Below are positions 5,564-34,044 of a stretch of DNA of 64,000 bases, in pieces (the first letter of the stretch is position 1; each line of letters begins with the position of its first letter). This DNA is from Diacronema lutheri (lineage: Eukaryota > Haptophyta > Pavlovophyceae > Pavlovales > Pavlovaceae): assembly GCA_019448385.1 (NCBI GenBank), contig JAGTXO010000074.1, positions 1-64,000 of the forward strand. Reading direction: 5' to 3'. The translations under genes and the position numbers were made by a program. The notes under the pieces are model-generated. The model was not told the origin of the DNA and searched no databases. It saw only the letters and a program-made list of their open reading frames with translations.

Positions 5564-8500
5564 TCAGCCGCTGAGCCAACGAGGCCGCCGCGCGCGCTGC
5601 GAGCCGCCGACCGGCAGCGGCGGCGCGGCCGCGAGCGGCGCGTACGCCACGCGCGCGTGCAGGTCTGCGCCGGCGCTCGCGGCCGCGACGACCGCCGCGC
5701 GCCGGAGCAGGCGTGCGGCGGGCGCGGCGAGGAGGAGGATGATGAGGAAAGTTCCGAGAAGGGCGGGCGCGCGTCCAAAGTCGGCAAATGGCACATAGCG
5801 GTGGTTCGGCTGCGCAAGGGGCAGGGCGCGCGCTGGCCCGGCCGTGTCGCGCGAGACGTTGCCTGCCCCCGCCCCACTCCCCCCCCGGACGCCATTGCTA
5901 CTCGCGGTCGTGGGCTGCCGCATGCCATGCGCGGCTGCCGCGTGTAACGGCCACGATGGCGGTCGGCCGCTTCGGGCCGCGCCGCTTTTGCGCTCGGCGC
6001 CGCCCGGCACCGTTCGCGCGACGCGATCGAACAAGCGGACGGACGCAGTGCCGCCGTCGGGCCCCTGCGGCGCGCGAGCACGTGCGCCTGCGCCCGCGGC
6101 GGCGGCCAGCCTCGGGCCCGAGCCGCGCCCGAGCCGCGCCGGCTCGTCGCCACCGGCGCGCAGCCGCCCCGCGCCGGCAGCGAGGTCAGCGCGCGGCCGA
6201 CGGCGCGACGTAGCTTGCTGTTTTAAAAGCGCGCACAGTGAGCTGACTGAGCTGACTGAGCTGACTGAGCTGACTGAGCTCGAAGCGCCCGCGCGTCGCG
6301 CGTCCGCGCCGCGCGTGTCCCGCACGGCCTCGTGCACGGTCGCTGCGGCGCGCGCCGCGTCCATGCCGCGAAAGTCGAGGACGGTGAGAAGGGGCGGAGG
6401 CGGCGAAGCGCGCGCGCGACCAGCCGCCTCCGCCTCCGCCTCCGCCTCCGCCTCCGCCTCCGCCTCCGCCTCCGCCTCCGCCTCCGCCTCCGCCTCCGCC
6501 TCCGCCTCCGCCTCCACCTCCGGCGCGAGCGCCGCGCGCAGCGCCGCGCCGCGCGCCATGTCGTCCGCGCCGAGCGCGCGCACGCGCACAACGCGCACAC
6601 GCGCGGCCTCGGCGAGCGCCACCTCCGCCTCCGCGCTCAGCTCGGCGCTCGGCTCGACGAGGTGGGCGTTGAGCGCCGGCGGGAGGTTCGCTGGCGACAC
6701 GAGCGCCGCGCGGCAGCCGTCGAGCGCGCCGGCGCGCGCGCCGGCGCCCGCCGCTGCGTGCGGCCTGACGAGCCAGATAGCAGGCGCGAGTCCGCCATCG
6801 TGTACGCGCGCGAGGCGCCGTTGCCGCCACGATGGCGGCGGCGGCGGGTGCAACGGCGGCTGCCGCGCCAGGCGGCGCCCGCGCGCCTTGTCGGCGACAG
6901 ACCGCGCGCTCGGCGCGCGCGCCATCGCCGCGTCCGGTGCGTCCGGCGCGTCCGGCGCGTCCGGTGCGTCCGGTGCGTCCTGTGCGTCCGGCGCGTCCGG
7001 CGCGTCCGGTGCGTCCGGCGCGTCCGGCGCGTCCGGTGCGTCCGGTGCGTCCGGTGCGTCCGGCGCGTCCGGTGCGTCCGGCGCGTCCGGCGCGTGCCGC
7101 CCACCGACGACGACGAGCGTGCCCCGACCGCAGAGGTGGCGGACATGATTGCGGTCGGCGACGCGCTCGCGCGCGGATAGGCCGATGGTGCGCTCGGGCA
7201 GATACGGCGTCACGGCCGCGTAACCAAACGTTACGGCAAGGCGCGCGAGCGGTGTAACGTGCGACGTGACGTAGGCGGCGTAACGGCCGAGCGCGGCGGC
7301 GTCGAGCGCGCCGCGCCGCGTGCCGCGCGCGCCGCCGCCGCGCTCGGCCGTTACACCGCCGCGCTCGGCCGTTACGCCGCCGCGCTCGGCCGTTACGCCG
7401 CCGCGCTCGGCCGTTACGCCGCGTAAACTCGCGCGACCGGCGCGGCTCGCGAGCCTGCGGCGCGCCGGCAAAGCCACCGACGTAACCGTCGCGTAACGGC
7501 CGTCGAACCCCATCGGCCGCGCGTCGGCGGGCGCCGGCGGGCCGAGCGCCGGCGGGCCGAGCGGCGTCGGCGGGAGGCCGCGGATGGCGAGCAACCGCAC
7601 GCCCGGCGCGGTGCGGTTGGTGGGCGCGTGTCGAAGTGCTTCGTCCACTCCGGGTTCCCATCCTCCGAGCGCGCGCATCAGAATCTCGCGCGACGGCCTG
7701 AGCCGCGACAGGCAGGCATAGGCGGGGGCGGCGGCGGAGGCGGAGGCGGAGGCGGGGGCGGGGGCGGGGGCGGGGGCGGGGGCGTAGGCGTAGGCGTAGG
7801 CGTAGGCGGGGGCGTAGGCGTAGGCGGGGGCGGGGGCGGAGGGGGCGGATGCGGCGTGGCGCGGCGCGCACGGGCGGGCGATGTGAGCAACGCTCGACCA
7901 GCCAATGGCCGTGAGCGCGCCGCGCGGCGCCACACCCGTGCTCTTCGCCCACCCGCCCTCCCAACCTGGTGCCTTGCCCCGCCCTGCCCATTCCGCGCCC
8001 CCAGTGTGGTACCCTGCCCCGCCCTGCCGCGCCCTGCCCCTTCTGAGTGGGATACCCTGCCCCGCCCTGCCCCCTTCCCCGCCCTCCAGTGCGGCGCTGC
8101 GGCGCCCCCAGTGCGGTGCTGCCGCGCGCGCCGCCGCTGCCTCGCACGCAGCAGCCCCCCCGCCGCCGTCCGCGCGGGCTCGGCACCTATTATCCGTAAG
8201 CGCAGAAAGGTGCATTGCCAGCGCTGGCGGGTGCCCGCCCCCTCCGCGCGAGTCCAGTGTGAGCGGGCAGCGCAGCGTCTCGACGCGCGCGCCGCGCCGC
8301 TCGCGCCGCGCCGCGCCACCCGCCGCCTTCGAACTGCCGCTCGTCTCCGAGCTCGTGTTCGTCGCCAAGAACGTACGTGCGCCCGCGCCCGCGCGCCCGC
8401 GCGCGCCCGGCGGCGGCGCGAGCAGCGGCGCTCGCGCCGGCAGGGCCGCGCACCGCGCCGCGCGCACGAGCATTTGCTCATCAAAATGGGCGAACGCCCA

Positions 8501-17345: not shown

Positions 17346-17590
17346 ACCGCCGCCGCCGTCGCCGCCGCCGCCGCCGCCGTCACCTCCGTCGCTGCCGAGC
17401 AGCGCGGCCGCGACCGCCCAGCGCGCGAGCGCCGCGCGGCGAGCGCGCGCGGCGCGCGCGCGCTGCGCGGCGTCGGCGGCGCGCGGCGCGGCCGCGCGCG
17501 CGGCCGCGCGCAGCCACACGCGCAGAGCGGCGCGGCGCCGCGCGGCGGCGCGGCCGGCCGCGGCCGCGGCCGCGGCGCCGCCGCGCCGCT

Positions 17591-17621
<31 letters not shown>

Positions 17622-20600
17622 TGTCGCGCGCGCCCACGCGACGGCGAGCGTCGTGGCGGCGCCGAGCGCGCGCACCGCACCGCGCTGCCGCACGCCGGCG
17701 ACGCCGCGCACGAACCGGCGCCACGCGCCGCGCGCGCGCGGCGGCGCACGCCGCGCGGCGCGCGCGCCAGTTCGGTGCGCGAGCGCGGCGGCGACGCGCC
17801 GCGCCCAGCGGCGCGCGAGCAGGCGAAGGTGGCCGTCGCACGGTGCGGCGCCGCCGCGCGCCGCCAAGCCGCGCGCCGCGCGCGCGCGCCGACGCCAGCG
17901 GCGCGCGGCGTGCGCAAGGCCGCCGGCGCGCGCGCGAGCGAAGTGCGGCGGCGGCGCGGCGCGTGCGGCGCGCGCCCACGTGCGCACGGCGGCCGCGCGC
18001 TGCGCGCGGCGCGCGAGCGCCGCACGGATCCGCGCGCGCGCCGCCGCGCGCACCGCGCGCAGCGCGCGCGAGGTCGCGGCCGCCGCCGCGCGCGTGCGCG
18101 CGAGCGCGTGCCGGGCGGCCGCCGCGCGGCCGCCGCTCGCGCGCAGCGCGCCGCCGGTGCGCCACGCGGCGAGCGCGGCGCGCGCGGCGCGGCGGGCGCG
18201 CGCGTCATCCGCCGCCGCGCCACGCGAGACGAGCGCGCGCTCGGCCGCGGCACGCACGCGCGCCGCGCCGCGCCGCGCGCCGCAGCGCCGCGCGCCGCGC
18301 GCCCACGCGAGCAGCGCGCGGCGCGCGCCGCCGGCGTCGGCGGCGGCAACGGCGGCTCGCGCGTCGGCGCCACGCCGCGCGCGGCGCTCAGCGCGCCAGC
18401 GCCAGCGCCACACGCCCGCGCGCGCCGCGCGCGTGCGTGCCGCGCTCCGACGGCGCGCGGCGGCGACGAGCGCCCGCAGACCGCCGCCGAGCGCCGCCGC
18501 GCGGCCGGCGCGCGCGGCGGCGGCGGCTGCAGCCGCGGCCACGGCCGCGCGGCGCAGCGCGCGCAGCGCCGCCGCGCAGCGCCGCGCGCGCGCCGACGGC
18601 GCGCGCGTCGGCGCCGCCGCCGCCGCCGCCGCGGCGCCAGCGCGCGGCCGTGGCGGTGGCCGTTGCCGCCGCCGCCGCGCGCCGACGGCGAGCAGGCGCC
18701 ACGCGCGCGTGCCGCGCCGCGCGCGCGCGCGTGCGCGCGCCGCGTCCGCGGCGAGCGCGCGCACGGCGGTGACGAAGGCGCGCGCCTGCGCGTCGCGCAG
18801 GCGGCGGAGCGCCGTGGCGGCGCGCAGGCGGCCGGCGCCGAGCCCACCGGCCGCGAAGAGCGAGCGCGCGGCGAGCTGGCGCGCGCGCCGCGCGGCGCTC
18901 GCGAGCCAAAAACGGTGCGCGCACAGCGCGTCGGTCGCGGCACGCGCGAGCGCGGCGGGCGCAATGTGCACGTGCCACGCTCGCAGCGCGCGCCGCAGCG
19001 CGCGCGCGCGCCCGCCGACGGCCGCGGCGGCCGTAGCTGCGCGGCGGCGCGCCGCGCGCGCGCGCGCGTCCCGCAGGGCGCGCAGCGCGCGGCGCACGCG
19101 CGCGCGCGCGGCGTGCGCGGCGGCGCGCGCGGCGCGCGCGGCGGCGCGCCGCCACGCGCGCAGCGCCGTGCCTGCGGCGGCGACGGCGCCGCGACCGCGC
19201 CGCGCCCAACCGCCACCGCTGGTGCCGGTGCCGCCGCCGTCGCCGCGGCCAGCCGTGCCCGCTGCCGCCCGCACGCCCCCGCCGCCATCCGCCGACGCGC
19301 GCGCCCCCGGCGGCGGCGGCGTCGGCGGGAGCGACGCGATCGGCTCGGAGGCCGGCCAACGACGCGTGCTGGCCGGCGGCGGCGGCGGCGGCGCGATCGG
19401 CTCGGAGGCCGGCCAACGACGCGTGCCGGCCGGTGGCGGCGGCGGCGGCGCGATCGGCGGCGCGCGCGGCGCGCGCGGCGCGCGCCATGCGCGCCATGCG
19501 CGCCATGCGCGCCATCGGCGAAGCGCACGTCCACGGCCGTCGCCGTACGCGCCGCCGACGGCCGCCGCGAGCCGCCACGCGGCGCGCAGGCGCGCAAAGG
19601 CGCCGCCGATCGCTGCCGTGCGCGCCGGACGCGCGCGCGCGAGCGCGCGCGACGCGGCGGTGCGAGGGCGCGCGCGCGCGCGCGCCCAGCGCGTGACCGC
19701 CGCGCGCGCGGCGCGCGTGGCGCGCGCGGCGCGCGCGGCCGCGGCGTTCGCGCCGGTCACAGCGGCGGTGGCGCGCGTCGCGGCGGCGGCGGTGGCGTGC
19801 GCGCGCCACTCGCGCAGGCCGCGCCGCCGGTGCGACGCGCGCAGCCGCCGCGCGCATTCGCTCGCGTCGCGCGCGACACGCGCGGCCGCCGCCAGCCGCG
19901 CGAGCGCGCCGCCGCCGTCGACCGCGCCGGCGGCACGCGCGGCGAGCATGGCACGCGTGGCGCGCGCGCTCGCGCGCGCGGCGGCGAGCCGCCAGCAATG
20001 CGTCGCGTCGGTGAGCGCGAAACGCGTCTCGCTGCGCGCGCGCGCGCGCGCCGTTACGGCCGTCGCGCGCCGCGCGGCGCGGCGCCAGCGCGCGAGCGCG
20101 GCACGCGCGCGCCGCGCGGCGTGGTGGCGCGCGGCGAGTTGGCGCAACGCGGCGACGTCGCCCGCGTCGACCGCGCGCGGTGCGAATGCACGCAGCGCGC
20201 GCACCGCGCTGACCGTCACCGCGCGCTCTACCGCCGCCGCTTCAAGTCCCGCGACGCCCAGCCGCCCGTACGCGTGCGCGTTGAGCGCGCGCAGCGCGCG
20301 CGACGCGCCCACCGCCGCGGCGACGCGGCGCACGTGGGCGCGCGCGCGCGCGGCCGCGCCGGCGCGCCGCAGCGCGCGCACGGCGCGCGCTGCGCCGCGC
20401 GCGGGCGACGCGGCATCGAGCGCGCGCGCGTGCCGACGCAGCCACGTCCGCCGTCCAACGGTGGGCAAAGCGCCGAGCCAACGGTCGAGCGCGGCGGCCG
20501 TCGCGGCGCGCGCGGCCGTGGCGCCGCGCGCCGCGCACGCGCCGCGCCGCACCGCCGCGGCGGCGCACGCGAGCTGCCAGTCGCGTACGCGCGCCACGAG

Positions 20601-21768: not shown

Positions 21769-22801
21769 TCAGGCGCCCGGATGGACGACATCTAGCGCCG
21801 TGAGCGCGCCGAGCCGCTCGGCCGTGTGCTCGAGGCGCACGGCGAGCTCGTGCCACGCGCGGAACGCGGTCGCGGCCGACGCCGCGCACGGCGGCCAAGG
21901 CTCGCCGCGCCCGCCGCCGCCGCCGGCGCGCCGCGCACTGCTGGGAGCGCCGTCGGCGCAGAACGCGGACGCGTCGACGCCGTGCGCGGCGCACGCGGCG
22001 GCGATGAGCGCGCGGTGCGTGCCGGCGAGGCGGCGCAGTCCAACCACCGTCGCGCCCTCGCCCGTCGTGTCCGCGTGCGCGTGCGCGTGCGCGTCCGCCG
22101 CGCGCCGGAGCGCGGACGCGAACGCGCGGTCGGCAGCGGCGCCGCCGCGGTCGGTGGCGAGCGCCAACGCGCCGCCGCTCGCCGTGCGCGCGCGCAGGCC
22201 GCCGCGCGGCGTGGCGCGCGGCGGCGTCGGCGCGCCGCTGCTCGTCACGCTGCTCGAGCGTCGGCGGAGGCCGCCGCCGCCGACGCCGCCGCCCGCGCCC
22301 GAGCACGCGCCGACGCCGTTGGACGCCGCGGCCGTGGGCGCGACCGGCGTGCCTAGCGATGGCGGCAGCGGCGTCGGCGTCGGCGGCGGCTCGCCGAGCG
22401 AGCGCAGCGCGGCGTGCAGTGCGGCGCGCACGGGCACCAGATCGCGCGCCAGCCGCGCCGCGTCGTCGAGTGCGTCCGCAACCGCGCCGACGAAGGCGGC
22501 ACATGCGCCATTCTCGAGCTGCGCGGCGGTGGGCGGGTGCGCGCACTGCGCGCCCGCGAGCCACAGCAGCCTGTTCGCCGCGAAGATGTCGAGCACGGCG
22601 CGGCGCGCGTCGGGCGCGCCGCCCAAGCGCAGCGCCTCTGCGGTCGCGCGCAGCGCGCGCAGCCGCGCGCACGCCGCGGCCTCGCCGAGGTTGGCCGGCT
22701 CGCGCGACCGCGCGCCGCCACCGCCGCCGTTCTCGCCGCTTGGACCGCGGCCGTCGCCGCCGCCGCTGCTGCTGACACCACCACCGCCACCACCGCCACC
22801 A

Positions 22802-22843
<42 letters not shown>

Positions 22844-25791
22844 CCACTGCCGCCGCTGCCGCCGCCGCCACTGCCGCCGCTGCCGCTACTGCTGCTCGAC
22901 GCGGAGCGGCTGCGGCTGACCGCAACGACGCGTGCGCCGCGCGCCTCGTCGCGCGCGCCGACGCCGCCGCCCACCACCGCCGCCGCCGCCGCTGCCAGCG
23001 CCAGCGGCGGCGCGCCGAGCGCCGCGAGGAGGCGCGCAAACGCCGCCGCGTCCTCGCGCCTTTTAAAAGAGGGCGGCCTGCGAGGGATGGCCTGGTCGAT
23101 GGCGACGAGGGTGCCGTCGGGCGCAACGAGCGCGTTCTGCGGATTGCCGCGCCAGCCGAGCAACGGCAGCGCGAGCCTGTCCTCGTTGCGCAGCGTGCAG
23201 TCGAAGACGACCAACCGGCCAAGCGCCGCCGCGAGCTGCGAGAAGGCACGCGCCGGGTCGGGCAGCGCGAGCAGCACGTCCTCCGCGTAGCGCAGCTCAA
23301 CACCGCGCACAAACTCCATCACGAGGCACGCGCACCGCGCGCGCGGCCGCCCGCGCGCCGACGCCTCGCCGCCGTCGTCGTCGTCGTCGCCACCGTCGAC
23401 TTCGGCGTGGGCGCGCCCCGCGTCGGCCGCGCCGACGGGCCGCGACGCGGTCGTGCGGCAGTTGCCCGCCATGGCGGCGGGCGGGCGGGTGCACGTGTCG
23501 AGCTGCAGCGCGCCGACGAGCGCCGCGCCGCCCCACTGCGCGGGCAGCGCGCGCGCCGCCGCGCACAGCGCCGCCCACTCGTCGGCACCGTCACCGTCAC
23601 CGTCACCGTCACCATCACCGTGACCATCACCATCACCATCACCTTCACCGTCACCGCCACCGCCACCGCCGTCACCCGCGCCACCCGCACCGCCGCCGCC
23701 GCCACCGGCCCCGCGGACGAGCAGGCGGCAGCGCGGCACGCGCACGCCCATCCGCGCGGCAAGCGCGGCGGCAAACGCCTCGGCGCGCGTCTCCTCATCC
23801 GTGCGCGCGAGCTTGAGCACCGCGACGCGCTCGTTCGCTGCCGCGCCCGCCGCGTCGGCCGCCGCCGCGTCCGCCGCCGCGTCGGCGTCGGCGTCCGCCG
23901 GCGCGGCGTCTGCCGACGCGGCGGCCGCCGCGGCGCGCGCGAGCGCGCGCGCGGCGACGGCGGCGGCGGGCTCGACGGGCGAGGGCATCGCGAGCGCCGT
24001 CGCCTCCGCCTCCGCTCGCGCGACGGCCGCCGCAGTCTCAGCGGCGAGCGTGTTGACCACGACACGCCGCCGCCGGCCGCCGCCGCCGCTGCCGGCGTCG
24101 TCGGCGGTGGCGCCGGCGGCGGGCACGTCGTCGACGCTGCCACCGCCGCTGCCATCGCCTCCTCCGCCCACCGGACCGTCCGGCCGCCATGCTTCGCTCG
24201 TCCGGCTGCCGCCGGCGCTGGGGTCCGGTGCGGTCGGCGCGGCGGCGGCGGCGGCGGCGGCAGTCGCGATGAGCGTGTCGCGGCCAGCGACGAGCAGCGC
24301 GCCGCCGTGGCCGCCGCAGCCGTGCGCGCCCGGGTGCGAGCCGCGCGCGCCGCGCCCGCGCCGCGCCTTTGGCGGCGGCGGCGTCGACCAGGCGGCGCGC
24401 GCGCCCACGCGCGGCGCGTGCGCGCTCGACGGCGTTGGCGCGCACAGCGGCGGCGTGCGCACGCCGCCGTCGGCCGCGTCCGCGTCATCGCGGCCCGCGC
24501 GGCCCGCGCCCGCCGCCACATCGCCGGCCGAGCGGGCGCTGTCGGCGGGTGACACGAGCATCGCGTGGGGGTGCGCGAAGAGGAGGAAGAAGACGTCACC
24601 GCCCGAGTTGACCTGAAAGCCGCACGCCGCCGCGACCGCCGCGACCGCCGCGGCGGCCGCCGCGATCGCCGCGCCCGCGACGGATTCGCCGCGGCAGTCC
24701 GGCCCGCCTCGGCCGTCCGGACCGCCTCCGCTGTCCGGCCCGCCCAGCGCCTCCGAGCGAATCGCGCAGCGCAGCGCGCCCCAGCCGGCGGCGTGCGCGT
24801 CGGCGCGCCACGCGCCCTCCCGCCGCGCGCGCCGCGCGCACAGGCTGCGCACGTCGAGCGGCTCGGCCGCGCGCAGCCGAAGGCGCGAAACTGCCGGATC
24901 GGCGGCGATCGTGTCCGTCGCGGCCGCCATCGACAGGCGCGTTGCGAGGGTTGCGAGGGTAGCGCACGCGGAGGCGGACGCGAAGAGCGAGGCGCGGATC
25001 GACATGCGTAGCGACGCGCGCAGCGGCTCGGCGATCGCCGCGACCGCGAGCGCCGACAGCCGGCGCGCGCGTCGCGTCGGGCCGCCACCGCCGCCGTCCG
25101 CCGCCGCGCCGGCCCCCGCCACCGTGCCGCCCGCGCCGACGGCCGATGACGCGGACGCGTCGCGGCGCAGCGGCCATGGCGCGGCGACGGCGCGCGCGCC
25201 GCTCCCGTCCGCGCGCTCCGAGCCGCCCGGCTTGGCGAGCGCCTCGCGATCCGTTGGCCTCGAGCCGGCGACCGACGCGCGCCCGCGCCGGCGCGCGTGC
25301 TCGGTGGCGCGCAGCGCGATGCTCTGAAGCACGGGCAGCTCGCCCAACCCGAGCGAACGCGAGCGACGGTGCGCCGCCGGGCGCGCCTCAGCGCGCGCGC
25401 ACCCCGTCCATCCGCCGTCCGCTGAATTGGCGTCGGCGCCCGTCGGCGCCTCGTGCGCGCCGCAGCCGCTCCGCGCGAGCGCCGCGCTCAGCCTGGTGCG
25501 CTGGTGCGCGCCCTCGGGCGTGACGGAGTGGTCGGCTGATGGCGGTTCAGGCATCGCATCGGCCGCCTCGTCCTCGTCCATCTCCGCCTCCTCGCCGGAC
25601 GACGATGTTGCGGCCGCGCGTGGTGCGCTGCGCGCGGCACGCTGCGACGCGCCGCGGCCGCGCCGGCCAGCGGCCGCTGGCGCGGCAGCGCGGCGGCGCG
25701 CGCGGCGCTTGAGGATACGGGCGAGGGCAAGCGCGACGAGCGCCGTGGCCAGCGCCGCGCCGCCTGCGCCGCCCACCGTCAGTTGTGCCAT
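21769..25791 (-). CDS. Membrane-anchored protein with actin-fragmin-kinase-like catalytic domain
   Basis: Intronless frame of 1340 aa from ATG 25791 (MAQLTVGGAGGAALATALVALALARILKRR), which begins with one hydrophobic span and a basic stop-transfer. Ser/Ala/Gly-rich linker fills residues 40-590. A kinase-like core follows: VAVLKLARTDEETRAEAF (a Lys in strand 3 and acidic helix), CLVMEFVRGVELRY (hinge), then LVVFDCTLRNEDRLALPLL, GWRGNPQNALV and GTLVAIDQAI. The N-x-D-R, G-N-x-x-N and I-D-x-x-I elements match the atypical actin-fragmin kinase fold (PF09192), related to PI3/4-kinases. The core is interrupted by a Gly-Asp run and a long Gly/Ser run, both from in-frame microsatellites. The last 450 residues are helical with LAGTHRALIAAACAAHG near the end. 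Substrate and localisation are inferred only. Confidence 0.6.
22745..22895 (-). repeat. Coding triplet/hexanucleotide array (Gly/Ser run)
   Basis: A (ccaccgccg)n-type array on the + strand encodes a Gly/Ser tract within the kinase-like protein. Confidence 0.7.
23588..23662 (-). repeat. Coding hexanucleotide array (Gly-Asp run)
   Basis: About 12 copies of ccgtca/ccatca encode an alternating Gly-Asp tract. The same hexamer array encodes a Gly-Asp run in the sugar-transferase-like protein (9969-10016). Confidence 0.8.
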
Positions 25792-26251
25792 CCGCGCGCG
25801 CTCGGTGGCGCGAACGGGCACCTGTGCCCGAATTCGCCGCGCGAGCTTGATCAGAAGCCGACGTTTTATTCGCCTTCAGTGAAGGTTCATGTAATCGCCG
25901 GGGATCAGTCGTCGCATGGCCACAGTCATGCGACTTTTACAGTCTGCATGGCGCTCACCCGGTGACGCGCAAACCAAAGCTCATTCGGCGACCACGTGGG
26001 GCCCGGTTAAGGCGGCGTGCGCCCAAGTAAATGGGGTGGGCGAGGCGGATGCTCGCGGCGCGCCATTCGAGTGTACAGGGCCGCCCCTCGGCGCGCCCGA
26101 CGGCGATGGCCACGCGTTGGGCCACCGGCGCGCGTCGCGTCGCCGTGCACGAGCGCGGCACGCCCCGACGGGCACGCTCGGGCCGACGCCGCTCGCGGCG
26201 AGGCAGCCGTGCGCGATGCCGTGCGCGATGATGCCAATGAAGACGGGGAGC
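25792..26251. other. Intergenic region, lower GC
   Basis: Between the start of the kinase-like gene and the stop of the plastid protein gene, both leftward. 25850-26000 is notably less GC-rich and holds an 8-bp inverted repeat gtcgcatg...catgcgac (about 25911-25934). 26227-26250 duplicates a coding block of the plastid gene. This is presumably 3' UTR plus promoter. Confidence 0.5.
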
Positions 26252-26602: not shown

Positions 26603-26897
26603 TGCGCAGGGCAGGCGAACGCACAATTCTTTCGGATCCTCTCGGGCCAACGGAAGCCCGGACTCTCGGACCCGTCCACGGACGTTTGCAGTGGGGGCAC
26701 TGGCACTGGCGCCAGCGTCGCCGCTGCTGCGGGCGGGCAACGGTGGCCCGTGGCCCATCTGGACCAACGGAATCCCGGACACACACCTCGCCGCTGCTGC
26801 GGACGGGCAACGGCGGCCCATACGAACCACCGGAAGCCCGGACTCACGCGTCACAACTCACAAGTGACTCACACCTCACAGACTCACAGCTCCCAAC
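26603..26897. repeat. Degenerate roughly 75-bp tandem repeat upstream of plastid gene
   Basis: Three to four diverged units combine ctcgccgctgctgcgg, gggcaacgg, ggcccat and cggaagcccggactc. The last copies merge into short actcaca-type repeats (26850-26900). The region separates the plastid-protein start from the stop of the receptor gene and must hold the promoter. Confidence 0.7.
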
Positions 26898-29800
26898 TCA
26901 CACCTCGCCGCTGCTTCGACGCTGCAGCCACGACGCGGCGGCGGCGCCGCGCGCCGCCTCGGCCGACTCGGCATCGCTTGGCTCGTGCCGCGGGCCGCCC
27001 GCGCCGCCGATCGCTGAGGCGCGTCGCTGCACCCACCGCACAAGCCGACCTACGCCGCCACCGCCACCATCGCCTCCGCCGCCACCGCCGCCCGCGTCCG
27101 TGCTCGCGCTCCGCACGGGCAACGGCGGCAGCGAGCGCCGGCCAGTGCGGCTCGCCTCGCCACTGCCGCCGCCGCCGCCGCAGCCGCCGGCAATGAGCGC
27201 CGGTGCGGGCGGCGCCTCGACGACCCTGCTGAGAATCTCTTTAAAAATGAGCTCCTCGCGGAGCGCGCGCGCGGCCGCGTGCTGCTCGGGCACGGGCTGC
27301 TGCGCGGCCCTGCGCTCCGCCACACGGCCGCAGCTCGCGCTGCCTGTCGAACCGCCCATCGTCGTGAGCCCGTCGCGGTCGCCCGCCGCGCCGCCGCGGC
27401 GCGCCGCCACCTGCCGGCCGGCCGGCAGCGGCAGCGGTGAGGGCACGGCGCTGCCGCAGGCGGCGGCGGAGGCGGCGCGCGCCCACGGCGCGCCGCGCTG
27501 CGCGACGGGCGAAGCGCTGCGTGACGAATCTCGCCCATCCACCACTGCACTCAGCGTGCGCCGGCGCGCGAGCGCCGCGCGCGCGCCCGCGCCGCCGACG
27601 GTCGGGGCGAGGCTGGCGTACGGCCGCGGCGGCTCGGTGGCAGAATCCCGGTCAACGACCGACGCGCCGCGCGCGGGCGCCGCGGGCTGCGCGCCGCCGC
27701 CGCCGCCGCGCCCGCCGCCCGCCGCGCCCCCGGCGCCACCCCCGGCGTCGCCCCCGACGCCGCCCGCGGCGTCGCCCGCGGCGCCGCCCATGGCGCCCGC
27801 GCCCCCGCGCCGCATCTGCTGCGGCAGGTCATGCGTCGGCGCGAAGGCGCCGAACCCTTCGACGACGACGACGCGCGCGCCGCGCCGACCGTCCGCGACC
27901 GGGTCGACGGCGAGATCGACGGCCACAAGCTCGTCGCACTCGTCGCCAAACGTGTCGGAACAGAGCGAGACGGCATTGACGAGCAGCTGTGCGGTGACGA
28001 GGCGACATAGCTCCGCGCCGCCGCCGCGCGCGACGCTCGGCTCGTCGCGCGCGCACGCAGCCGCGACTTCGGCGAGGAGTGCGTCGCCCTCGCGCGCTGC
28101 CGCCCAGCCGAACACCTTGTGGCACGCGCCGCGCTTGCGCACGGCAGTGGCGACCTCAAAGAGTTGGTTCGCGGTCAGCGCGCACGACGCGAGCAGCGCG
28201 ACGCACCCCGGCACGCGCACGCTCGCGACGCGCGCCCACGCCTTGTCCGCGTGCGCGCCCGCCGCGCTGCCGCGCGCGCGCGCGTCGTCGGGCGAAACGC
28301 GCGCGTCGGACGCGGCGGCGCTCGTGCGCGCGGCAGACTCGCGCACGCTGCCGCCGCCGCGCGTGCGTTCAAACCACTCGCGGTCGAGCGCGTGCGAAAG
28401 GCCCGCGCGTGCCGCCGCGTCCGCCGGGTCGGCCGTTACGCCGGTCCACAGCGCGCCGTGCGCGCCGCGCACGTCCGCGTGCAGCAGGTCGCAGAGCGTT
28501 CGATGCGCGGGGTTCGAGCCGCCGCCCGTGCGCGCGGCAGCGGCGCGCGCGAGCGCGTCGAAGAGCTCGGCGGGCAGCGCGCACGCCTCGATGAGGCGCG
28601 GCGGAAGGAGCACCAGGGGCACCCCCAGCACTTGGCAGTTTGCGCAGAGCTCGCGGCACGCGGCGCGCGCGCGCGGCAGCGTGCTCTCCGCCTCGACCTC
28701 GAGGCGGAGCCAGTAACCATCGACGCCGAGGGGCACGTCGGCCGGCGCGTCGCTCGACGGCGTGGGCGGCTGCGCGCGGCGCGACGGCGAGGCGCTGTCG
28801 CGCGCGTCCACGGCGACGAGCTCGCGCCCGGCGGCGGCCGCGGCCGCCGCGCCGCGCGCAGCCGCCCGCGCGGCGACGGCGGCCTGCGCGCCAGTGAGCG
28901 GCGAAGCTTGCGGGCCGAGTGCTGGGTGCTGGGGGTGCCCCTGGTGCTCCTTCCGCTCGCGCCGCAGGCCGACGCTCACACGGCCGAGCGGCGATGCGAT
29001 GCGCAAGGAGGAGGAGGAGGAGACGGAGGCGACGGGGGGGAAGGCGCGCGAGACGCCGCAGAGGTCGTCGCCGCCGCCGCCGCCGTCGTCGTCGTCGCCG
29101 CCGCCGCCGCCGTCACCGCCGTGCGCGCGAGCCGGCGCGCGCGCCGACATGCGCGCCGCGCTGGCGCGCGGCGTGGGCACGGGCCCCCAAAGCGTGCCGC
29201 GCAGATGCGCCTCGCACGCGCTCGCGCCGCGCGCCGGCGGCTGAAACGACCGCGCGTCGATGGAATAGGGTGCGTTGACGGCCGTCCCGCCGCCGCGCTC
29301 GACGGGCGATGGCGGCCGCCGCGCGCCGAGCGGACGCACGCGCGCGCCGTGCGTGGCGGCGCGGCTCGGCGTATGGGCGGCCGTGGCGGCTGCGGCGGCG
29401 GCGCAGGGCGCCGCGGCGTGCAGCGAACGCGCCGCCGTTGGCGAGAAGCTTCCGGAAAGTGCCTTGGACGCGCCCGCCGCGCCTGCCGCGCCCGCCGCGC
29501 CCGCCACGCCCGCCTGCACGCGCGGCGCGAAGCTGCCCGAGAACGCCTTGGGCTTGGTGTCCCCCGCGCCGGCCGCGTTGTTGGTAGGCGCGAGCACGGA
29601 TGCGCAGCCGTGCGTGAGCTGCAGCAGGCAGTAGCAGCTGCCCGGCTCGGACGGGTAACGGTCAGGCTCGGACGGGTAACGGTCAGGCTCGCCCGCCGCG
29701 CGCCGCGTGACGTCGGCTTCGCCTGCCGCGCGCGCCGCGCCGTCGGCCGGCGCGTCGAAGGGGAGATTTAAATTGAGCGGCTCGTAGACCGCCGCGGCCT

Positions 29801-31388
29801 CGAGCGCGCGCTCGAAGGACGAGCGGGCACAGCGGCAGTCGGTCGCGGGCGGCGCGAGGCCGACGGGCGTGAGGCCGACGGGCAGCGGCGAGCGCGCGCC
29901 GCGCACGGGCGACGCGGCGGCGGCGGCGGCGATGATCGCATCCGCGCGCGCCGACGCGGCGGCGGCGCGCGCATCGCGCTCGGCCAGGTCGCGCGGCGTG
30001 CCGCGCGCGCCCGCACGCGCCGGCGACTCGGCGCGCGCGCCGTCGAAGTCGGCGTCGGCGTCGCCGGCGGCCGGCGCGAACAGCGCGCTCGCGCCGCGCT
30101 GCGCGCCGGCGAGAAGCGCGGCACACTGCGCCGGCACCGGGCTGCGCTCGTCGACGAGCGGCTCGGTGCGCGACGCGCGCGACGACGAGAACGACGCGCC
30201 GTCGCCCACCTGCGTGGCGACGGCTGCGGCGGCCGCGGCGAGCACGGCGCACGCGCCCTCGTCCACGTCGCCGAGCGCGGTCACGGCCTCCGTCTTCTCG
30301 CGGAAGAGGAGCGGGCGCGTGCGCGCGAACGCGGCGATGAGTGGTGGCACCGCGCACGTGAGCACCAGCCGCACCGCGCGCCCGACCGACGTGTACACCG
30401 CCTCGACGGCGGCGAGCTCCGCCTCGCCCGTCGCGCCCTCGTCGAAGACGTGCACCGCCGTCGCTGCCTCCAGGCCGAGCTCGACGACGAGCGCGCGAGC
30501 CGCGCTCAGCCCGCCGCCGTCGGCCCGCGCGCCATCGCCGCCGGCTCGCGCGCCATCGCCGCCATCGCCGCCATCGCCGCCGACGGCCTTGGCATCGCGC
30601 TGCTTTTGAAAGACGAGCACCGCCCGCACCGCCACCGCGTTCACGTCGAGCAGCGCGCGCAGCAGGAGCAGCGTCGCGCCCTGCGAGACGGTCGGGGCGT
30701 CGTGCAGCACGAGGAGCAGCTTCTGCCGGAACTCGGGCGCGAGATGCGCGCCGATCCCGCGCGCCAGCGCGCGCGCCACGAAGACGGACAGCTCGCGAGG
30801 CGCGTGCACGCCGTGCTCGTCGGCGCTCACGCCGATGACCTCGTGGCGCACGCCGCGCACGACCACGGGCGTGGGCGTGAAGACGGCTGCGGCGATGAGC
30901 GGCGAGCACGCGAGGATCGCGAGCACGTCGTACGCGTTGAACGAGACGACCAGGTCTGGAGCACGCAGGCGACGTGCGGGCGCGGCGTGCGACCGGTGCC
31001 GGAGCAGTGGACGGTCAGCGCCGGCCGGGGCGAGGCGCGGCGCGGTGGGCGGCTCCACGCGCGGACGCGGGCGCGCACCCCAAATCGGGTCGGTCGGCCC
31101 GCGATCGACCGCCCTGCCCGCGCAAAAGGTGCGCGAGAACCAGTCGCGGTCGCAGCGCGCGGGCAGGCCTTGGCGCTCGGCCGAGCCGGCGGGCGCGCAC
31201 GCCCTCCGCCACAGCCGCTCGATCGTGTCGCGCTGCGTCTTGCGCAGCCGCCAGCCGATCGGGTTGCCCGACTGCGCGAGGTGGTCGTAGATGTCGCGCC
31301 GCGCCGGCGCCGCGTACCTGCACGTTGCGCCGGCGAAAGGCGCGGCAGGGCCGGGCGTGCGTGAGCGCGCGCGCCCCGCCCCTCCGAG

Positions 31389-31423
<35 letters not shown>

Positions 31424-34044
31424 GTTGCGCGCGCGCGCGCACGGCGTGTGCAGCGGCGCGAAGGAGCATGCACGCGCGCGCGCACGCGGCGTGTCTCGTG
31501 AGCACTGTCATCGGGATGCGCAGCGCCTGCAGCTGCGAGTAGAGGAACGCCGCGGCGCGTGGGTCGAAGACGTTGTTGTGCGCCTCGTCGGGCAACAACG
31601 CGGGCTCACGGCTCGCGGCGGGAGGCGCGTCTGCGGACGCATTGGCCGCGGCGGACGGCGTTTCTTCGGCGGAGGTGTGGGCGCCGCAGCGGCCCTTGCG
31701 CCGGCCGCTGCTTAGCCTTGCGCTGCATCCGCCAACCTCAGCCGTGCCGCGCGCGCAGCGCTCGCGCGGTGGCGACGCGGCCGCGGGCGCCGGATGCGGC
31801 CTGAGCGCCGCCACGTCGACGCCGCCCATCACGACGACGCGCTTGAGCTTTGCGACGCAGAGCGGCGCACGGTCGCGCAGGAAGAGCGCCGCGTCCTTCA
31901 TGGACGAGATGCAGAGCAGCGTGACCGAGTGCGGCGGCGCCGCGTCGAGTACCCGCTGCAGCAGCGCGCGGCCGGGCTCGATCGTCATCGCGCGCTGCGA
32001 CTCGACTGCGCGCGTGCGGGGCAGCGCCGATGGGCATGGGCAGAAGGGGGGGGGAGGGGGGGGGGGGGGGGGGGGGGTGGCAGGGGAGACTCAGGCAGGC
32101 AAGCGGCGACGCGGCTGAGACGCTGTGTGCGCGTGTGCACGGTTCCACCCGGCCGCGCGCGCACGCGCGTGTCGCCCAGCCGCGCGCACCTGGCGAGATG
32201 TAGCCCGCCGCAGTTTCGGAGAACGTGTCGCGGTGCGTGAGGCTGCCGCCGTCGCTGCCGACGCCAACAGGCACCGCCTGTAGCCGAAGCGCGTCGAGTG
32301 TGCCGCGCACGAGGCGCGCGCGCGCCGCGGCGGGCCGCAGGTTCGCAACCACCGCGAGCAGCTCGATAAGCTTGTGGTCCGTCAGGAAGCGCGCCATCAC
32401 GAGCGCCATCTCGTCGTCGAGATCCTCGCCCGCGTCCGTGATGATCACGATGCGCTCTGGCTCGAGGCGCGGCGCGGCGGCCGATTCGTCGAGGCGGGAC
32501 TGGAGCCTGCGCAGCCGCTGTCGGTACGCGAGCGCCGCCGCGCCGCTGCACAGCACAGCCGAGCCGAGCGTGACGATCGCGAGGAGCGTCTGCCAGCCGG
32601 GCGGACGCGAAGCCCCGGCGCCAAGCGCAGCGCCGCCGGCCGCGCGCGCGCCGCCCGCGCCGCGCGCGGCGCGAGGCGAGGCCGACGGCGGCTTGCCATC
32701 GCTCGGACGCGTCGACGTGCCGTCGGCGTACACGAAGGATGGGCTGAGCGCCCACCCCGAGCCAGGCGTGTGCTCGCCCATCTCGCGCACGCGCTCGAGC
32801 GCACCTCCGCCGCCGCCGTCGGGCGAGGGCGCCCAGCGCAGGTTCTCGAGGACGACGGCCACGGCGTTGAATGCGCGCGAGCCCTGCGCGTCGAAGTACA
32901 CGTCACCCGACGCGCCGGCAAAGCCGAGCCGGCCGATCCCAGCGGTGAGCGCGGCGCCGCCCGGGAACGTGCCACGCGCCTCGCCCAGTCCGGGCGCGCA
33001 CGCGGCGAGCGCGACGGCGACGGTCGCGTCGTACGCGAACGCGACCCAGTCGTCTTCGGGCGCGCGCATCGCGAGCGCCTGGCTGATCATCTCACCCGAG
33101 CCCGACCGCGCCGCCCAGCCAGCGTCGCCGAGCAGCGCGTTGACCTCGTCGTCTCCCACCGACGCCCACGCCGCTTTGAGCGCCTCCCACGCGCGCTGGC
33201 CGTTGCGCCCGCCGGCAACGCGCACGAGCGCCGAGCCGTGGAGGAGCCGCGCCAGCTCGTCTGGCAACGCCGGCGAGCCGATGAACGTGCCGCCGAGCAC
33301 CCAATGGTAGCCGCCGCCGATCATGCCCAGCTGCCGCGCCGCGTCGACGAGCAGCCGCCAGTCGTCTTGCTGCCCGACGGCGGCGATGATACGCACGTCG
33401 CCGAGCGCGCGAAGCGCAACGTTGATCGTGGTCGGGTCGGCGAGCTCGAACGACGCGGCGACAAGCTCGATCCCGTGCTCCGCGCACCAGCGGCCGAGCG
33501 TCTGCGCGTACCCGATGCCGAACAGGTCTGCCACGTGCACGATTCCCATCCGCCGCCAGCCGCACGCGCGCACATACGCGCCGACCGACGCGGCAACCGC
33601 TTCGTCCGACGGCACCACGCGCGAGAAGTGCTTGTATGTCGCGACGTTGTCCAGCGCGGGCGACGTTGTCGCGAAGCCGACCTGCGCCGTGTCGAGGTAG
33701 CCCGCGAGCAGTGCGATCGGCGCGGCCGCGCCCGACGTCTCGGGCCCAACGACCACCTGCCAGCCAAACGTGTTCACGCCCGCAATATACGCGAGCAGCG
33801 CCTCCGACGCCACGCGTGCGCTCGTGCCCACCACCGCGCGGGCCTGCAGCTCGAGCGGGCAATCAGCGAGCGCGCCGAGTGCGGGCACGATTGTGCCGTT
33901 CCACTCGCGCACGTGGCGCAGCGCGAGGAGCGTGCCGATGAGGAGCTCGCCATTCGCCATCACCCCCACGCGCACCACCGCCGCGCGCGCCGCCGGCGCG
34001 AGCGCCAGCGCGAGCGCCGTGAGCGCCACACCTCTCGCCTGCAT
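26898..34044 (-). CDS. Receptor-like fusion: PBP1/ANF-type ligand-binding domain, TM, tandem nucleoside-hydrolase-like domains
   Basis: Exons 34044-32190, 32005-31486, 31317-31079 and 30955-26898 join in phase to 2223 aa. A signal peptide (residues 1-21, ALALALAPAARA) precedes a type-1 periplasmic-binding/ANF-receptor-like domain (about 25-440: GVNTFGWQVVVGPETSGAAA, FATTSPALDN, FSRVVPSDEAVA, GWRRMGIVHVADLFGIGYA). One TM (about 480-503, LLAIVTLGSAVLCSGAAALAY) precedes an inosine-uridine nucleoside hydrolase-like domain: IVIITDAGEDLDDEMALVMA (Asp-rich metal motif), SVTLLCISSMKDAALF, VVVMGGVD, HNNVFDPRAAAF, and, across introns, LTRHAAYAAPARRDIYD and SFNAYDVLA. A second, degenerate copy follows: KLLLVLHDAPTVSQG (Asp cluster lost), LVLTCAVPPLIAAF, CQVLGVPLVLLP, LDREWFERT, VPGCVALLASCAL. 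Low-complexity linkers separate the parts. Ligand and substrate are unknown. Confidence 0.78.
28601..28956. repeat. Perfect 31-bp inverted duplication inside the receptor gene
   Basis: 28601-28631 and 28926-28956 are exact reverse complements (core ggagcaccaggggcaccccc). On the - strand the left copy encodes VLGVPLVLLPP of the second hydrolase-like domain. The right copy is read antisense in the upstream linker. 294 bp separate them. Confidence 0.9.

Follow-up and report, generated by a model that had tools for sequence, protein, structure and literature searches.

A predicted receptor-like fusion of a PBP1/ANF ectodomain to a HopQ1-like intracellular domain in the haptophyte Diacronema lutheri

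We describe a gene of the haptophyte Diacronema lutheri that lies on the minus strand (34044-26898) of a 64,000-nucleotide stretch of genomic DNA (hereafter the window; contig JAGTXO010000074.1 of assembly GCA_019448385.1, bases 1-64000 of contig C54 among the 103 contigs, 43.49 Mb in all, that were searched). As predicted from the genome, this gene very probably encodes a signal peptide, a PBP1/ANF ectodomain, one transmembrane (TM) segment and a domain of the HopQ1-like protein (HLP) type in one polypeptide. The frame joined from four exons across three introns comprises 2,223 amino acids (aa) and has a single, terminal stop codon (Table 1). The reading that we favour, with slightly better than even confidence, is that of a type I single-pass receptor-HLP, in which a small-molecule ectodomain would control a domain that hydrolyses or senses ribosyl or cyclic nucleotides. 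The order of the parts and the retained metal motif are visible in the sequence, and we infer the ligand, the transmission and the control of the output.

With residues 1-938 as query, the ectodomain was matched by Pfam ANF_receptor (E 6.5e-29; 101.5 bits against a cut-off of 25.4), and the same locus was recovered in a genome-wide profile search (E 1.3e-28). Class C receptor ectodomains were its best PDB matches, with metabotropic glutamate receptor 6 (mGluR6) at the top (E 1.5e-8) and GABA-B, plant glutamate and calcium-sensing receptors ranking below the mGluRs. By its sequence, the ectodomain is of the PBP1/ANF ligand-binding type. As the structural model, computed from an alignment of three sequences only, reached a pLDDT of just 40.5, this call rests on the Pfam and PDB sequence matches, and at that level they bear out the extracellular PBP1-type domain put forward in the original prediction. 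The signal peptide and the TM segment were assigned from hydropathy, the former also by eye; the count of lysine and arginine in the 15 residues flanking the TM segment rises from one before it to five after it.

Two ANF_receptor loci were found in the D. lutheri genome by profile search, namely this gene and one on contig C74 (L012:2655-5729, minus strand), in which an ANF ectodomain and a hydrophobic stretch precede a domain with an ISHQW..WVDF..RGWCRLE pattern. By eye, the C-terminal part of the C74 protein resembles TIR/HET-like domains, a likeness that we do not claim: apart from the ectodomain, Pfam gave no match at E 0.1, the top PDB hit reached only E 0.59 and the six TIR_2 stretches of the genome all lie on other contigs, so the label was dropped.

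The ectodomain, the TM segment and the start of the nucleoside-hydrolase (NH) domain share one open frame of 815 aa with no intron separating the three, and about the first 86 residues of the first NH copy (NH1) are included in exon 1. An identical exon-1 frame is present in P0001, a public protein encoded on an ENA contig of 5,642 bp, whose sequence is the same as that of the D. lutheri gene. The three introns all have GT-AG borders and the exon joins restore residues that align with relatives P0002-P0007, which confirms the earlier proposal that phase-consistent splicing restores the hydrolase motifs; the single polypeptide with PBP1, TM and NH-like parts was likewise corroborated, as ANF_receptor and Pfam IU_nuc_hydro fall in one frame. 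The length of the open reading frames (ORFs) was rejected as evidence for a gene, because long frames come cheaply at the 75-79% GC of the gene region and are common on both strands. In 60-codon windows, GC content at third codon positions (GC3) was 0.85-0.93 between the start methionine and the exon 1 end and fell off on either side (0.57 before; 0.82, 0.77 and 0.52 after). However, it counts as weak coding support only, since the genome is GC-rich and values of 0.75-0.95 occur in single phases of all three introns as well.

This weakness of GC3, a gene model that rests on genome sequence and the lack of an ectodomain in all eight of the other D. lutheri HLP ORFs that were searched with Pfam would fit two merged genes, of which one encodes a membrane protein with a PBP1 domain and the other, starting independently, an HLP. 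Yet such a merger is highly improbable: one open frame runs through the parts, TM-NH joins recur in D. lutheri paralogues and in Pavlovales sp. CCMP2436, and no in-frame methionine lies between that at aa 422 and the next at aa 546, within the region of the metal motif, so that an ATG start past the ectodomain that spares the NH start would still include the TM segment. With two Pfam domains in frame, no methionine in this interval and spliced joins that match relatives, the fusion frame is credible.

The intracellular domain was identified by Pfam IU_nuc_hydro at aa 533-681 (E 6.8e-10; query aa 1-938). The canonical nucleoside-hydrolase motif DXDXXXDD is absent from NH1, where DAGEDLDD stands at that place; in an alignment with relatives, NH1 retained DXXXDXDD, NN and a C-terminal YD. 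By its published definition, the HLP clan has DXXXDXDD in place of DXDXXXDD (PMC3608555, PMC11685791). This motif was found in 16 of 18 D. lutheri HLP ORFs and in 59 of 66 related proteins (counted as proteins, not domains, with the first copy of some tandem proteins lacking it); the seven without it are mostly fragments. XopQ was the closest solved structure by sequence in the PDB, with true nucleosidases much weaker, and the predicted NH fold of a relative matched XopQ far better than it matched classical nucleosidases. We regard it as almost certain that NH1 belongs to the HopQ1-like clan. With HopQ1/XopQ-type HLPs, including their fungal, moss and algal relatives, it has the NH fold, DXXXDXDD and the best PDB matches in common, whereas with canonical inosine-uridine nucleoside hydrolases it shares the overall fold and the Pfam family but not their DXDXXXDD, and the sequence and fold matches are much weaker. 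The TM segment, the ectodomain and a degenerate second copy set the D. lutheri protein apart from HopQ1-like proteins; HLPs of heterokonts and haptophytes are already in print, and no such fusion appears in the accessible parts of that report (PMC6019455).

The intracellular NH-like domain of the original prediction thus holds with regard to fold and Pfam family, but not as a canonical nucleosidase. The proposed output, in which a ligand would trigger the cleavage of purine or pyrimidine nucleosides by a receptor-coupled ordinary nucleosidase, could appeal to the name IU_nuc_hydro, the NH fold and the conserved metal aspartates. Against this stand the non-canonical DXXXDXDD, XopQ as the closest solved relative and the inactivity of HopQ1 and XopQ on standard nucleosides (PMC8910321, PMC3608555). 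Because of the non-canonical motif and the XopQ-like sequence and fold, it was rejected as the leading explanation and is, in our estimation, quite unlikely. Outside aa 1-938, AstA was the one Pfam match at E 1, and it stayed below the threshold (E 0.14); at the same E value, neither a guanylate-cyclase nor a kinase domain was found in the protein, and none of the six class III cyclase stretches of the genome lies on C54.

Regarding the tandem of NH domains that had been predicted, the second copy (NH2) proved real but degenerate, split and devoid of the motif: a profile of second copies matched aa 946-1108 and 1630-1828 with 102.6 bits in total, whereas in a control with 500 block shuffles the best of the 10 reported scored -0.1 bits. 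By our own count, two NH copies occur in 34 of the 66 related proteins.

Work on the HLP clan, which is also characterised by Ca2+ binding and by 2',3'-cNMP or ADP-ribose chemistry, offers several candidate outputs. Cleavage of 2',3'-cAMP/cGMP (PMC11685791) and phosphodiesterase activity (PMC11685791, PMC9963460) are reported for XopQ, which also binds ADP-ribose at the equivalent of the catalytic site and adopts a closed form around this ligand (PMC8910321). A catalytic output of the HLP domain on ribosyl or cyclic nucleotides is predicted here with a confidence that falls a little short of even. The binding of ADP-ribose would also suit a catalytically silent receptor, in which the HLP domain would be a sensor or scaffold that binds a ribosyl nucleotide (ADP-ribose, for example), with the protein integrating outside and inside signals. 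The loss of the motif in NH2 agrees with such a protein; the DXXXDXDD, NN and C-terminal YD retained by NH1 and the reported phosphodiesterase activity of XopQ do not, and we consider it unlikely. A cytokinin-type output, in which the HLP domain frees bases from riboside 5'-monophosphates, has its precedent in the hydrolysis of iP-riboside 5'-monophosphate by HopQ1 (Hann et al. 2014, as cited in PMC6019455), but other reports on the clan favour 2',3'-cyclic nucleoside monophosphates (2',3'-cNMP) or ADP-ribose (PMC8910321, PMC11685791), and this output appears very unlikely. As context rather than evidence, D. lutheri may plausibly use several nucleotide messengers of different kinds, since genome profile searches revealed six TIR_2, six class III cyclase and 22 PDEase_I stretches.

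For the receptor-HLP that we favour, a small extracellular molecule would be bound by the ectodomain, whose closure and/or dimerisation may pass the signal through the single TM segment and the basic juxtamembrane stretch. The intracellular HLP domain would respond with a change of activity, in the form of metal-dependent hydrolysis or sensing of a messenger, with a ribosyl or cyclic nucleotide (2',3'-cNMP, ADP-ribose or cyclic ADP-ribose) rather than ordinary nucleosides as putative substrate, and the site-less NH2 could serve as a regulatory pseudo-enzyme. In this way, the protein might act analogously to receptor guanylyl cyclases or to an ANF-TM-phosphodiesterase, but through a different output enzyme.

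Natriuretic-peptide receptors and other receptor guanylyl cyclases consist of a signal peptide, a PBP1/ANF ectodomain, one TM segment and a cytoplasmic enzyme-type domain. The D. lutheri protein has a similar layout, but its output domain is an HLP and a cyclase or kinase was not found. Another counterpart is the marine transcriptome protein P0008, the only other protein with a related ectodomain (26%) in a candidate-limited database search, which comprises a signal peptide, ANF_receptor (2.2e-46), a TM segment and PDEase_I (2.5e-66). It shares the layout and a DGTS..PSDG stretch before the TM segment with the D. lutheri protein, whereas its output is a cyclic-nucleotide phosphodiesterase instead of an HLP; it is a precedent for the ANF-TM-cyclic-nucleotide-enzyme layout. 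ANF-type ectodomains are best known paired with guanylyl cyclase, and PDEase_I in P0008 and the HLP in this gene suggest that those of protists are paired with several nucleotide-processing domains. In the open-licence literature, judged by titles and abstract openings, no published receptor-NH fusion was recognised, which is weak evidence of novelty.

HopQ1-like proteins have expanded strongly in D. lutheri. Used as a query against the genome, the NH domain of this gene matched 88 stretches, five of them being the gene's own exons, and after merging by eye those within about 2 kb, approximately 76 other NH loci were counted, many of them on C34. The closest were C86:624206 (65%), C5:194708 and 195351 (62 and 64%), C89:770133 and 770876 (65 and 71%) and C5:1004109 (51%). 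Pfam marks 41 NH stretches in the genome, and in the DNA surrounding the 24 that were examined, five TM-HLP genes were seen. Besides this gene and the paralogue on C86, they comprise three short ones whose TM segment precedes the NH domain by a few dozen residues; their frames, as read, showed no ectodomain (Pfam on L033 only; the upstream exons of L034 and L035 not searched). In several D. lutheri HLP ORFs, the NH domain is followed by TM-like segments (hydropathy only), and HLP partners elsewhere include NUDIX (P0019), TPR (P0057) and WD40 repeats (D. lutheri L015). An FN3-like ectodomain in P0006, suspected by eye, was discarded, as the Pfam matches were sub-threshold only. Regarding a viral origin, a single viral-contig scan, in which 12 stretches fitted a pattern, gave no confirmed relative.

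The paralogue on C86 (L032:817-6999; C86:620501-627500) has, like this gene, its ectodomain, TM segment and NH domain in a single frame (2,434 aa, of which 2,061 were examined; TM at 924, followed by NH1). Its ectodomain, however, is PstS-like instead of PBP1/ANF, with Pfam PBP_like_2 in two stretches (E 2.4e-16) and PstS as the top PDB match (E 4.4e-21), and by its sequence the paralogue is a candidate phosphate receptor-enzyme. P0066 of Pavlovales sp. CCMP2436, which covers the ectodomain end only, followed by TM and NH in the same frame, is 62% identical to the C86 protein over 260 aa and an apparent orthologue of it; with this gene it is alignable over the TM-juxtamembrane-NH region (51% over 133 aa). 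In the same species, P0051 is a TM-NH protein, which was aligned beside the TM-NH part of this gene. The architecture that was sought elsewhere thus recurs as ectodomain-TM-HLP in a paralogue and in Pavlovales sp. CCMP2436, but with an ANF ectodomain it was found in a single species.

A tree of 60 rows was computed; 56 came from an earlier set of 101, from which most second copies, near-copies and short rows had been dropped, and four, including two partial sequences, were added. P0066 was too short and was left out. Seven TM-HLPs, including that of C86, together with P0007, whose 5' end is missing, formed one clade with support 100/99, and a long-branch warning applies to P0057 and the main D. 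lutheri group. The environmental protein P0048 combines a seven-transmembrane (7TM) domain (PF00001, 7.2e-21) with an NH domain (Pfam match below the cut-off, E 1.5e-4) and was placed among second-copy NH sequences. On these trees, receptor-type fusion therefore arose by at least two gains or by one gain with losses; the three label changes on the tree may represent one gain and two losses. We tentatively propose a pavlovophyte class of receptor-enzymes in which PBP1/ANF and PstS-like ectodomains, binding nutrients or signals, would gate an intracellular HLP that removes 2',3'-cNMP, ADP-ribose or cyclic ADP-ribose, an arrangement perhaps reached more than once, as in the 7TM-HLP.

Several observations weigh against the receptor-HLP that we favour. 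It is a prediction from genome sequence; the ectodomain model is of the low quality given above, and the NH structure comparison used a model of a relative and not of NH1. The presence of a metal motif does not prove catalysis, and a review classes XopQ among the catalytically inactive NH folds (PMC8910321). No ANF-HLP of a second species was found among the 7,992-7,994 candidates sharing most words and within the length range, a weak negative because the candidates were limited by number and length. Lastly, the D. lutheri TM-HLP C5b falls outside the 100/99 clade, and since none of the eight other HLP ORFs taken to Pfam has an ectodomain, receptor fusion is a minority use of HLPs.

HLPs are known mainly as plant-pathogen effectors, and the accessible literature disagrees on their substrate. 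An HLP as the cytoplasmic part of a receptor with a recognisable small-molecule ectodomain offers a setting in which HLP function can be tested. A ligand-induced change in 2',3'-cNMP or ADP-ribose turnover, the ligand being phosphate in the PstS-like paralogue and perhaps an amino-acid-like molecule here, would, if found, represent a new receptor output and hint at the purpose of the HLP fold. The chemistry of injected plant-pathogen effectors would then be an ordinary output of transmembrane signalling in algae.

Table 1. Predicted features of the D. lutheri gene (positions in the window)
Feature	Position	Strand	Remarks
Exon 1	32190..34044	-	aa 1-618; signal peptide, ectodomain, TM and NH1 start; one open frame
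Predicted signal peptide, about aa 1-21	33982..34044	-	by eye and hydropathy only
PBP1/ANF ligand-binding domain, aa 81-392	32869..33804	-	Pfam ANF_receptor
Single TM segment, aa 487-505	32530..32586	-	hydropathy; basic cytoplasmic flank
NH1, HopQ1-like domain, about aa 533-938	30756..32448	-	Pfam and alignment; interrupted by three introns
DXXXDXDD metal-site motif DAGEDLDD, aa 537-544	32413..32436	-	alignment
Intron 1	32006..32189	-	184 nt, GT..AG
Exon 2	31486..32005	-	spliced model
Intron 2	31318..31485	-	168 nt, GT..AG
Exon 3	31079..31317	-	spliced model
Intron 3	30956..31078	-	123 nt, GT..AG
Exon 4	26898..30955	-	reaches stop codon; NH1 end, degenerate NH2 and low-complexity stretches
NH2 first half, aa 946-1108	30246..30734	-	aspartate motif lost
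NH2 second half, aa 1630-1828	28086..28682	-	about 520 low-complexity residues after first half

Elsewhere in the window, a frame of 1,368 aa with long low-complexity runs was noted on the minus strand at 21772-25875, with a weak match to the actin-fragmin kinase catalytic domain (E 1.1e-5, barely above the cut-off). The region 17400-20200 is of extreme GC content (0.879 over 18001-20000) and contains degenerate GC and GCGCGCGGC repeats. Short repeated motifs also lie just 3' of the gene (26620-26910), with a period-15 unit GACTCACACCTCACA at 26866-26906 and further units resembling it visible by eye.
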